Positions 36,594 through 60,112 of a stretch of 64,000 nucleotides of DNA are shown in pieces. The DNA is from Synergistaceae bacterium (lineage in GTDB: Bacteria; Synergistota; Synergistia; Synergistales; Aminobacteriaceae), in NCBI GenBank assembly GCA_017451025.1, contig JAFSSM010000046.1:1-64000 (forward strand), given 5' to 3'. Made by a program: the position numbers and the translations under genes. Every line of letters begins with the position of its first letter. Positions within the stretch are counted from its first letter, which is position 1. The notes under the pieces were generated by a model, which saw only the letters and a program-made list of their open reading frames with translations, was not told where the DNA came from and searched no databases.

Positions 36594-38441
36594 ATGAACG
36601 TTTTTGAAGCAAGACTCGCAAGACATTATGACGAACTCAAGTGGCTCTACTACGAACTCTACGGAAGCGACAAGCAGGCTTTTGACTACTTCTGCTCCAT
36701 GCTCAGGAAATGCTGGCTTGAACGCAACGACCTCCTCCGCGAACTCGACGATGCCCGCGAGATTGTCCCGAACTGGTACGCCGGAAATGACATCATTGGA
36801 ATGATGATGTACACCGAGTGCTTCGCCAAAGACCTCAAGGGCATAAAGTCGCACCTGGATTACGTGCAGGAGTGCGGAGTGAGCTACCTTCACCTTATGC
36901 CCCTTCTCGACACGCCTAAGGGCAGAAGCGACGGCGGCTATGCTGTCTCCGACTTCAGGAAGGTACGTCCCGATCTCGGCACAATGGAGGACTTGGCCGA
37001 CCTCTCCGCAGAATGCCACTCGCGCGGAATCAGCGTGTGCCTTGACTTCGTGATGAACCACACGAGCGAAGACCACGACTGGGCCAAGCACGCACGCAGA
37101 GGCGAGAAGGAATATCAGGACAGGTATTTCTTCTTTGACAGCTGGGAGATACCGAATCAGTTCGAGCAGAATTTGCCTGAGGTTTTCCCGACGACAGCAC
37201 CGGGCAACTTCACCTTCAACGAGGAGTCCGGAAAAGTTGTCATGACCACGTTCTACCCGTATCAGTGGGACCTGAACTACAGGAATCCCGTTGTGTTCAA
37301 CGACATGACGGAAAACATGCTGTACCTGTGCAATCAGGGAATAGACATCATCAGGCTTGACGCTGTGCCATACATCTGGAAGACGCTGGGCACAAACTGC
37401 CGAAACCTGCCGCAGGTTCACACGCTTGTGCGCATTATGCGTATGGCCGCCGAGATTGTGTGTCCTGGTACATTATTGCTGGGCGAGGTAGTCATGGAAC
37501 CGTCAAAGGTAGTGCCGTATTTCGGGACTGTGGAGAAGCCGGAGTGCAACATGCTCTACAACGTTACGACGATGGCGAGCACGTGGCACACTGTGGCGAC
37601 TCAGGATACGCGACTGATGAAGCACCAGCTGGAGAGCGTGTTTGCCCTGCCGAAGGAGTACGTGTTCCTGAATTATCTTCGCTGCCACGACGATATTGGC
37701 TGGGGACTCGATTACCCGTTCCTGCGGACGTTCGGCATCGACGAGGTTGCACACAAAAAGTACCTCAACGATTATTTCAAGGGGGACTTCAGGGACTCGC
37801 CTTCACGTGGCGAGACGTACAACGACGCTCCTGAACTTGGCGACGCGAGAATGTGCGGGACTACTGCTTCGCTGTGCGGACTCGAGTCTGGCAACAAGGA
37901 AATGGCGATAAGGCTGGATATTATGCTTCACGCGTTCCTGCTGACCCAGAGCGGAATACCGGTCATCTACAGCGGCGACGAGATAGGCCAGCTCAACGAT
38001 TATACCTACCACGACAGCCCAGACCCGGACAAGGCGGCGGACAGCCGTTACGTTCACAGGGGAGTGTTCCACTGGGAGAACGCGGCCAAGCGCAACGATC
38101 TCACAACACCAGAGGGGAAAATCTTTGACGCAGTTCACGCGATGCTGAAGCTCAGGGACAGTCAGGCGGTGTTCTCGAACAGTGCGGATACGTGGCTGAT
38201 TGAGACGGGGAATGATCACGTTCTGGGGATAGGCCGGTATTACGGGGAGAAGACGCAGAAGGAGAAGATGCTTGCGTTCTTCAACTTCAGTGATGAGCCG
38301 CAGACGATCACGACGAACGAGAATCTGGACGGAATATTCAAGTACAGGGACATGATCACGGGCTACATGTTCAAGCCGGAGACAAGCGGCGAGATTAGGC
38401 TTGAGGGATTTGGCTTCCTGTGGCTACTTGCAGAGCTGTAG
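36594..38441 (+). CDS. Amylosucrase-like GH13 glucosidase
   Basis: A 615-residue GH13 enzyme. The substrate-site signature SDGGYAVSDFRKVRPDLGTM and LDFVMNHTSEDHDW match amylosucrases. The catalytic nucleophile Asp is in GIDIIRLDAVPYIWK, the acid/base Glu in TLLLGEVVMEPS, and the third Asp in LRCHDDIGWG. Amylosucrases make alpha-glucan from sucrose, but relatives hydrolyse or phosphorolyse alpha-glucosides, so the exact reaction is uncertain. It has no signal peptide and so acts in the cytoplasm. AAGGAG lies 14 bases before the ATG. It stands alone, with terminators on both sides. Confidence 0.9.
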   Translation: MNVFEARLARHYDELKWLYYELYGSDKQAFDYFCSMLRKCWLERNDLLRELDDAREIVPNWYAGNDIIGMMMYTECFAKDLKGIKSHLDYVQECGVSYLHLMPLLDTPKGRSDGGYAVSDFRKVRPDLGTMEDLADLSAECHSRGISVCLDFVMNHTSEDHDWAKHARRGEKEYQDRYFFFDSWEIPNQFEQNLPEVFPTTAPGNFTFNEESGKVVMTTFYPYQWDLNYRNPVVFNDMTENMLYLCNQGIDIIRLDAVPYIWKTLGTNCRNLPQVHTLVRIMRMAAEIVCPGTLLLGEVVMEPSKVVPYFGTVEKPECNMLYNVTTMASTWHTVATQDTRLMKHQLESVFALPKEYVFLNYLRCHDDIGWGLDYPFLRTFGIDEVAHKKYLNDYFKGDFRDSPSRGETYNDAPELGDARMCGTTASLCGLESGNKEMAIRLDIMLHAFLLTQSGIPVIYSGDEIGQLNDYTYHDSPDPDKAADSRYVHRGVFHWENAAKRNDLTTPEGKIFDAVHAMLKLRDSQAVFSNSADTWLIETGNDHVLGIGRYYGEKTQKEKMLAFFNFSDEPQTITTNENLDGIFKYRDMITGYMFKPETSGEIRLEGFGFLWLLAEL

Positions 38442-38455
38442 GGAATTGGACTTTG

Positions 38456-38484
38456 CCCCCGTCTGAGAATGGCGGGGGAAATAA
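38456..38484 (+). terminator. Probable terminator after the GH13 gene
   Basis: CCCCCG (38456-38461) pairs with CGGGGG (38473-38478); the following sequence AAATAATTTT is A/T-rich but lacks a pure T run. Confidence 0.5.
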
Positions 38485-38502
38485 TTTTCGGGAGGAATGA
38501 CC

Positions 38503-39500
38503 TTGACAAACCAGATAAAGTATAATAGCTTAGAGCAGAGCAGAGCAGAGCAGAGGCAGCCTTATGCTCAGAAGTTCCTTCTGTTGCTGTCATTATGTCA
38601 ACGTATAACGGAGAGAAGTATCTTGCTGAACAGTTAGACTCAATTCTTGCGCAGGAATGTGTACATGTTGAGCTTTTCGTGAGGGATGACGGCTCAACTG
38701 ACAGTACGAAGGATATACTCAGAGAATATGCATCAAGCCACAAGAATATTCACCTTATTTTCGGCGAAAATATAGGTTGGCGCGCAAGTTTCGTTACGGA
38801 ATTAGGTTTAGCGTCAGGATACGAGTTCTACTCCTTTAGTGATCAGGACGACTTCTGGGAGAAAGACAAATTATCTTCAGCAGTAATGCTCATCAAGCAG
38901 GCGAGACAGGTAAAAAGCAAAAATTTCCCCATACTTTACTACTCCAACAATAACATCTCAGACAGCAAACTTCGTTTCATCCGCAAAACCAAACTTGATA
39001 AACGTGTACGTTCACTAGAGAGCGTTCTTATCCGCATGTCAGTACCTGGCTGTTTCATGGTTATGAACGACAAGTTACGGGAACTTATAATCTCCAGGCC
39101 AGCAACAGATGAAATCTTTATTCGCGGACATGACACAGCGGCGATGATATTGACGTACATTTTCGGCGGTTCAGTAGTCTTCGATACAAATGCACACATG
39201 TTTTACCGACAACACGAAAACAACACCGTAGGTACTCCCAACGGCATAATTTCGCGCATCAAGAAAGAGTTCACGGATATGCTCAGATATAAGGGAATGG
39301 AAGCAGTAATCGCTAAGGCTATGCTTAGGGCTTACGGCGAAAGAATTACACCCCAGGCAAGAGATACTCTAGAGACGGTAGCCGGTTACAGAGAACACAT
39401 GTTTTCTCGATTAAGTATAGTCTTTTCTCCGAAGTTCAGGACGGGAGACTGGAGACTCACTATCTTTGGCAAATTTAAAGCCTTGTTAGGCCTGCTGTAG
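38503..39500 (+). CDS. GT2-family glycosyltransferase, phase-variable and out of frame in this copy
   Basis: The conserved frame encodes a GT2 enzyme: VAVIMSTYNGEKYLAEQLDS, FVRDDGSTDST and the SFSDQDDFWEKDK motif typical of rhamnosyl- and related transferases of polysaccharide synthesis. The first ATG in that frame (38595) lies inside the first beta strand and has no ribosome site. A good start, TTG at 38503 with GGAGG seven bases upstream, is in another frame and reads through a 5-bp repeat (38532-38555). Losing one repeat unit, or gaining two, would join this start to EVPSVAVIMST. The gene is therefore read as a contingency locus in the off state. Frame arithmetic is direct; the switching is inferred. 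Translation from 38595 at low level cannot be excluded. Confidence 0.82.
38532..38555 (+). repeat. Pentanucleotide repeat (AGAGC, 4.8 copies) at the start of a glycosyltransferase gene
   Basis: AGAGC occurs four times in tandem followed by AGAG. Because five is not a multiple of three, each unit gained or lost shifts the frame of everything downstream. The repeat lies between the only good ribosome site and start (38491-38505) and the conserved GT2 frame. Confidence 0.92.
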
Positions 39501-59179: not shown

Positions 59180-60057
59180 TTACGAGTACAGCTCACTTAC
59201 CCTCTCTATAATCTCAGCGTCAACAGACGGTTGAAATTTTCGGGCGAACATTGCTTGAGAGGCTTTTATCTGTTCGAGGTCGGACAGTCTGAAAGTGTAG
59301 GGACTTCCTCTGTTCCAGTCAATGAACCTCATGGATGAAGGAGCGCGCTTCTCGTAAAAATCCGAGTTCAGCAGGAGTGTGTGAAGGAATATCTCATCAG
59401 CGCAGACGGTATCGTGGAATACTTTGTGAATCCATTCACGTTTTGAGAGGACGTACCTCGCGAACTTGTCCGTTATGCTGAACCACTGGCTTCCTTTTTG
59501 GAAGTTTATACCCTTGTTGCGGTGAACATGAAGCATTTTCTGGAGCTTGAGGCTTATTCTGCTGAGTACACGCACGATTCTATTGCCCCTTCTGCCGTTG
59601 AGTTCCTGAAATGGATAGTAGTAGCGTATTCTGTCTTCGTAGCCGAAATTTCTGCTTTGGAAGCCAACGAACTCATTTTCGCTGTGCTCCTCGAAGAACT
59701 TGATGATGTCCTCGCTCTTCTTGATGGGCAGGTCTGCTCCGGATAACAGGTGATAGTGTCCGTAATGTCCCTGTGAAGCTGCGGCCTCAAGCAGTATCAG
59801 TTCGGCCTTAATCTGGCTGTAACCTCCCCAAGATACTTTTATGCGCGGGGTATGAAAAATCCTGCTGTACTTTGTGAGCTTCAAAGTCTCAGCAGGATCA
59901 TATGATTTATTCTTTGCGTCAAAATGTATGAAGATGTCAATTTTTGGGTGATCTAGCATTTGAACCAGAGCCGTAAACGCAGAGTTTGCCTCATGTGCTA
60001 TAATGAGAATGGCTTGCTTGCTTGCTTGCTTGCTGAAGAATGTACAGCCTCAGCCAT
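59180..60057 (-). CDS. GT14-like (core-2/I-branching type) glycosyltransferase, phase-variable and out of frame in this copy
   Basis: The conserved frame resembles core-2/I-branching beta-1,6-N-acetylglucosaminyltransferases, as in bacterial capsule or LPS loci: LDHPKIDIFIHFDAKNKSYD, GHYHLLSGADLPIKKSEDII, and KGSQWFSITDKFARYVLS. The first ATG in this frame (59959) misses the family's usual first strand, which is encoded just upstream (ILIIAHEANSAFTALVQ). A start ATG lies at 60057, but between it and this strand are five copies of GCAA, and the present count leaves the two out of frame. Six or three copies would give MAEAVHSSASKQASKQAILI. So the gene reads as off in this copy. Frame arithmetic is direct; switching is inferred. 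Confidence 0.82.
60012..60033 (-). repeat. Tetranucleotide repeat (GCAA x5 on the coding strand) at the start of a glycosyltransferase gene
   Basis: Five tandem TTGC units on the plus strand (60014-60033), with two further matching bases, lie 24 bases downstream of the ATG at 60057. Gaining one unit, or losing two, would join that ATG to the conserved glycosyltransferase frame. Confidence 0.93.
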
Positions 60058-60106
60058 AATTAAATCAAGTCCCTTTCTGCAAAATTATCATAATTACTTT
60101 CGAGAT

Positions 60107-60112
60107 ATTATA
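60107..60112 (-). promoter_or_regulatory. Possible -10 box for the phase-variable glycosyltransferase
   Basis: On the minus strand the hexamer TATAAT (preceded by TTGG) lies 49 bases before the ATG at 60057. The matching -35 region is weak (TCTTAG at 17 bases). Confidence 0.4.

Follow-up and report, generated by a model that had tools for sequence, protein, structure and literature searches.

A probable frame-switch contingency locus before a GT2 glycosyltransferase gene, within a genus-wide set of tandem arrays behind one shared leader in Synergistaceae

The GT2 locus and a second array in the window

The DNA analysed here (the window, 64,000 nucleotides from a Synergistaceae bacterium) carries on its plus strand a short pentanucleotide array in front of a glycosyltransferase reading frame. 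An alpha-amylase-family gene (36594-38441) lies upstream and is followed by a terminator-like hairpin (38456-38478); then comes a Shine-Dalgarno-like GGGAGG (38490-38495), 7 nt 5' of a TTG codon (38503-38505), an arrangement recognized from the sequence which agrees with the ribosome site and TTG start proposed in the preliminary description. This TTG, the first half of a TTGACA hexamer, is the likely start of the leader frame, judging from the sequence and from sister loci; its actual use is unproven. An ATG at 38497-38499, previously overlooked, lies in the same frame and is probably too near the Shine-Dalgarno site. From TTG 38503 the leader frame reads TNQIKYNSLEQSRAEQRQPYAQKF... and ends after 44 codons at TAG 38635-38637, the downstream stop already noted, which terminates it at the present unit number.

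The array itself (38532-38555) consists of 4.8 AGAGC units, as first reported, and these are 100% identical. It is stop-free in all frames, encodes (EQSRA)n, and is the sole perfect period-5 run of at least 17 bp in the 64-kb window, and 17 bp was also the longest such run produced by 60 order-1 Markov simulations of the same length. The conserved GT2 frame extends from 38529 to 39500, and its assignment to the GT2 glycosyltransferases is correct (PF00535, E 3e-19, 70 bits vs a curated cut-off of 23.3). It is preceded by the stops TAA TAG (38523-38528) and contains no ATG, GTG or TTG until ATG 38595, which lies beyond the first strand (SVAVIM) of the fold. A start codon in this frame that avoids the repeat would have refuted the idea of a switch; it was sought and none was found. 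The body of the gene is intact over more than 300 codons, with a pN/pS of 0.34-0.48 at saturated pS, and from these sequence comparisons it looks constrained, that is, under purifying selection.

At 4.8 units the leader and GT2 frames disagree, which places the present copy in an off phase, as had been inferred. The distance from 38503 to 38595 is indeed 92 nt, and on-paper edits bear out the prediction that the loss of one unit or the gain of two restores the frame, yielding a read-through product of 330 or 335 aa, while +1, -2 and +3 units at the AGAGC array give no read-through into GT2. The locus thus has what is asked of an SSR switch: a perfect repeat beyond chance, with a unit that is not a multiple of 3, lying between start and gene body, and one phase of three leading to the full protein while the others stop early. 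No terminator was found between 38556 and the GT2 gene, and the RNA fold of the window leader is not stable beyond that of shuffles (z 0.85). Immediately 3' of the array there is a CTTATGCTCA block (38561-38570, plus strand) that recurs behind other arrays, for example at the tnpB locus on contig C58 of the same genome, on C90 of G031 and at L226. We considered whether CTTATGCTCA, being common to the window and the C58 tnpB locus, marks a past transposition, but this is unneeded, as many cassettes have a similar post-array block.

A second switch, unseen in the preliminary description, lies on the minus strand of the window and is also off. It comprises a TGnTATAAT-type -10 (TGGTATAAT on the minus strand, 60107-60112), a Shine-Dalgarno-like AGAAAGGGA (60070-60078), a leader start ATG (60055-60057) and an array of 5.75 AAGC units (60012-60034; GCTT on the plus strand). 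The frame of a Core-2/I-branching glycosyltransferase (PF02485, 59180-60049) is open through this array and is now out of phase; it comes into phase with +1 or -2 AAGC units, giving 293 or 289 aa.

A leader shared across the genus

Sister loci were collected with a query for the leader only, AAGGAN{1,3}TTGACAN{15,18}ATAATT, which contains no repeat. It returned 42 matches in 18 of the 43 genomes of the genus and none with the reversed control; outside the genus, matches occurred in just 2 of 145 other Synergistota genomes, and we therefore regard the leader as a trait of this genus. Nearly all of the distinct leader contexts (38 of 42) run straight into a tandem array, 24 with period 5 and 14 with period 7. 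As for the remaining four, L310 is cut near a contig end inside its array, and L246, L274 and L306 hold only ~1-2 units. Arrays of period 3, 6 or 9 are absent from these 38; period-4 arrays are found on C39 and at 60012-60034 of the window, so that the units in the family measure 4, 5 or 7 nt only. None of the 16 distinct units yields a stop codon on repetition, where 80-85% would be stop-free by chance, and taken as sole evidence this is weak.

A broader AGANC pattern gave dozens of loci in the genus with a common leader, whose order is AGAAAGGA(G), TTGACA, a spacer of 16-17, CATAAT or similar, and then the array. The survey of the own genome relied on patterns and undercounts loci whose leader or unit is of another kind. 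Reversing the pattern is a valid control for AGAGC and for the leader; it is not one for AGACC units, which read backwards give a rotation of themselves. Within one genome (G050) the same leader core precedes GACAA x8, ACACAGC x11 and GACTCAG x3.4 (L302, L303, L304). At two further loci of G050 (L227 and L228, on C35 and C38) the usual leader runs into TGGTC x7, in which the common GACCA unit appears as its inverse complement, and a signal-peptide-type protein is encoded downstream of the repeat at L227. No consistent inverted repeats around the arrays were noticed by eye, and a pairing of CATAAT before the array with ATTATG after it proved inconsistent across loci.

AGAGC arrays reach up to 18 units in the family, and in the own genome AGAGC also precedes the tnpB gene on C58. 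Outside the genus such arrays are sporadic (G065, G068, G149). We noted a ~23-unit AGAGC array at the start of a contig of G149, a genome from another family of the order, before a formyltransferase-like gene (L266, C80, 1-120), and a non-coding AGAGC x17 where the transcript of a flagellin gene is expected to begin in G068, from another genus (L127, C42, 3720-3804).

The genes behind the arrays serve mostly in the synthesis and decoration of surface glycans. Pfam searches on the gene bodies identified GT2, GT4, GT10, GT11, GT61, Core-2/I-branching, acyltransferase-3, MBOAT and LicD, together with polysaccharide pyruvyltransferase, bacterial sugar transferase, NTP-transferase, PIG-L deacetylase, a sulfatase-domain protein, Stealth, DUF4422 and methyltransferases. 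A few others belong to nitroreductase, OCD/mu-crystallin, a repeat-domain surface-like protein, DUF2142 or DUF6492, and some bodies had no match. Separately, AGAGC x4 lies inside an apparent EcoRI-family adenine methyltransferase gene (L131, C70 of G030, ~2047), where the frame changes at the repeat and a second partial copy of the post-repeat segment follows downstream; this is possibly a switchable methyltransferase.

Leader frames, phases and unit numbers

Each of the 38 distinct leaders contains a start codon that is open through the array. This is an ATG in 35 of them, compared with 9 expected from shuffled spacers; the other 3 have a GTG or TTG in almost the same position. Counted from the end of ATAATT, most of the starts lie at -21/-22 or -15/-16. 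The census of phases was restricted to gene bodies of 150 aa or more, of which there are 58. In 52 of these loci the body is open through the array; a leader start is present at 51 of the 52, with 17 bodies in phase (on) and 34 out of phase (off), which is the 1:2 ratio expected if phase is random. Over half of the 52 fused genes (32) lack any start codon within 60 nt 3' of the array.

Other genes have a start codon of their own. At L194, L196, L222, L226, L278, L305 and L308 there is one phase in which the leader frame ends on the ATG of the gene or no more than 4 nt from it (ATGA, TGATG or TAATG), and the same holds for the tnpB gene of C58 (L135). The chance of a stop this close to a start is ~14% per locus (135/957), and the test was done after the pattern had been seen. 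At L277 the leader stop comes within 4 nt of the gene start in no phase, and L227, L228, L287 and L299 lack an exact stop-on-start overlap; at the last three of these (not at L227) one phase ends near the ribosome site of the gene. Taken together, the fusions and the stop-on-start overlaps imply that what the switch sets, at either kind of locus, is the reading frame.

The tnpB arrangement (L135 and L003, C58 of the own genome G000) consists of an intact-looking gene with AGAGC x4.6 ~110 nt upstream, recurs in G031 and G024, and as far as its sequence allows us to say, TnpB of C58 may be phase-variable. L308 (C39 of G000) combines a leader with CTTG x6, a strong terminator and an FkbM-like methyltransferase gene, and in one of its phases the leader frame crosses the terminator to end on the ATG of the methyltransferase gene.

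A fixed repeat number would have spoken against the switch, and comparison between relatives indicates that the arrays are not fixed. Before a GT61 gene, the leaders of G058 and G059 are identical and the DNA upstream is 94.5% identical, with ~3 vs 15.6 units; another pair of relatives has at least 13.4 units (at a contig end) vs 11.2, and before related methyltransferase genes G029 has GACTCAG x2.9 vs GATTCAG x5.9 in G051. In orthologues of the window GT2, GACCA x5.2-5.4 replaces AGAGC at the same place. One orthologue without an array (L142 of G059) has a plain ATG start and begins MTSQIPEVAVIMSTYNG, which implies that the window protein needs residues that only a frame running through the array supplies.

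Alternative readings and relation to known switches

The TTGACA of the window (38503-38508), missed in the preliminary description and nearly invariant in sister loci, resembles a -35 box; with a spacer of 17 and TAGCTT (38526-38531) it forms a promoter-like leader (38503-38531, plus strand) akin to that of the sister loci. TTGACA is present in 40 of 43 leaders, and -10 matches of at least 4/6 at a spacer of 16-18 are found in 41 of 43, compared with 12% at random places; in the -10-like hexamer T-A----T is kept and the inner bases vary. This would fit a transcriptional model in which TTGACA-N16/17-TATAAT is a working promoter that starts RNA within the first unit, and the number of units tunes the length of the 5' UTR, its stability or ribosome access, so that the array is not a frame switch; the repeat in the flagellin 5' UTR of G068 points the same way. 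However, the TTGACA count is inflated because TTGACA was used in picking the loci, and the model has to contend with the many fused genes without a nearby start after the array, and with a window GT2 that has none before its first strand. It also leaves unexplained the start codons ahead of the arrays, the stop-on-start overlaps and the units that are never divisible by three, and we consider it very unlikely. How the boxes relate to a translated leader is less clear. A TTGACA...TATAAT start would place the RNA 5' end inside the array, past the start codon, and about half of the leaders have TGnTATAAT-like boxes ~30 nt upstream that would give a proper mRNA. The window leader is atypical in having no ATG at the usual -21/-15 place, with the TTG or ATG 38497 instead; upstream of it TGnTATAAT is absent and there is only the terminator-like hairpin just before the leader, so the source of a transcript containing the start is unclear. 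Either both promoters work, or the inner one has another role. The TTG of TTGACA cannot serve as a general start codon, since its frame stops at once in L216 and G055; we thus take TTGACA to be a conserved promoter-like box, and the TTG of the window still fits as a start.

Attenuation of the kind described for pil1 deserves to be weighed because of the precedent in Streptococcus gallolyticus pil1/pil3, where GCAGA, a rotation of AGAGC, lies in a translated leader and frame decides expression (PMC3894217). Here a separate leader peptide, of a length set by the array, would decide whether the ribosome disrupts a terminator before the gene. L308 has the same order of leader, array, terminator and gene and a phase that reaches the ATG of the gene, and it is the only locus where a terminator between array and gene is found; there is none at the window locus or at L196, 52 of 58 genes form in-frame fusions, and the window gene, which has no start of its own before the first strand, is joined to its leader without a terminator. 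The genes concerned also differ, being for glycans and not pili. Attenuation may operate at a few loci and not at the window locus, and as an account of the latter we give it next to no weight. It might further be argued that the GT2 copy is dead, or that its unit number is an assembly error, and that nothing switches: the genome is metagenome-assembled, the window copy is off, and many arrays lie at contig ends, so unit counts may be collapsed. The intact and apparently constrained gene body, the recurrence of the arrangement before dozens of genes, the 1:2 phases and the conserved leader starts all count against this, and an erroneous count would leave the switch architecture in place; we regard it as highly improbable. 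RNA binding of the TRAP type (GAG-N2 repeats, to which AGAGC is similar) was set aside, as the GACCA of the orthologues does not fit.

We conclude with a probability of roughly 0.9 that the window locus is a slipped-strand frame-switch contingency locus, belonging to a genus-wide set built on one shared leader. The contingency-locus reading put forward in the preliminary description is supported by comparison, in that the same leader with 5- or 7-nt arrays stands before dozens of glycan genes whose phases are one third on and two thirds off. We observe the anatomy, the frames, the recurrence across the genus, the bias towards glycan genes, the conservation of the start codons, the 1:2 phases and the copy differences between closely related species; slippage as the motor, switching within populations and an effect on surface glycans are inferred, as no reads or second strain were at hand. 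Those features of repeat-driven translational switches that sequence can test are all present, which does not extend to reversibility or phenotype. In the mechanism that we propose, a ribosome would bind AGAAAGGA(G) or a similar site, begin translation at an ATG, GTG or TTG ~10-30 nt 5' of an array of 4-, 5- or 7-nt units, and read through the array, which is stop-free in any frame, while slipped-strand mispairing would alter the unit number and with it the exit frame. In the fusion type, to which the window GT2 would belong, one of the three phases would continue into the glycan gene; in the coupled type, one would stop on the ATG of that gene; the other two would meet an early stop. We also entertain, as a doubtful proposition, that the leader is a dedicated switch-making module, its promoter starting RNA in the array to keep the repeat open and unstable, with units born or exchanged behind it. 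This would explain the identical leaders with different units in G050.

Similar switches are known elsewhere. The SSR loci of Haemophilus influenzae (the tetranucleotide LPS genes and hsdM with GACGA) likewise have 4-, 5- or 7-nt repeats in the starts of genes for surface glycans or modification, with unit number setting the frame (PMC2651432), and since hsdM with (GACGA)4 switches at a high rate, 4-5 units suffice for switching there (PMC2651432). In H. influenzae, however, each locus has its own 5' region, whereas in this genus, a commensal of another phylum that partly uses stop-on-start coupling, one leader serves dozens of genes with exchangeable 4-, 5- and 7-nt units. The neuO gene of the CUS-3 prophage in E. 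coli K1 carries a heptanucleotide (AAGACTC), similar in sequence to the GACTCAG units found here, within the 5' part of the coding sequence for a glycan-decorating enzyme that is on according to units modulo three, and it is off in 65.6% of 64 genomes (PMC13001214), against 2/3 here. It differs in being a single prophage gene with a single unit and no shared leader family. The opa genes of Neisseria have a CTCTT pentanucleotide in the signal-peptide region. They resemble the present set as a multi-locus family with a pentanucleotide near the start and translational on/off control, but they comprise one protein family and one unit, whereas here many families and units stand behind one leader.

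Repeat switching of surface sugars has mostly been studied in pathogens that evade immunity. The preliminary description knew of no such case in this phylum, and we likewise found no report of repeat-based switching in the Synergistetes/Synergistota papers searched, most subscription papers lying outside the search; one survey gives an inversion-type signal in one Synergistetes species (PMC5903667). An uncultured, mainly rumen genus of Synergistaceae appears to carry several switches per genome. Since one leader is shared and the repeats are exchangeable, metagenome data suffice to find and count these switches, with no need for cultures, and they offer a natural series of variants in leader, unit length and unit sequence. 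We suggest that these commensals probably reshuffle their coats at random, which predicts combinatorial coat diversity in a commensal, with predation by phages or protozoa, by inference, as a possible driver.
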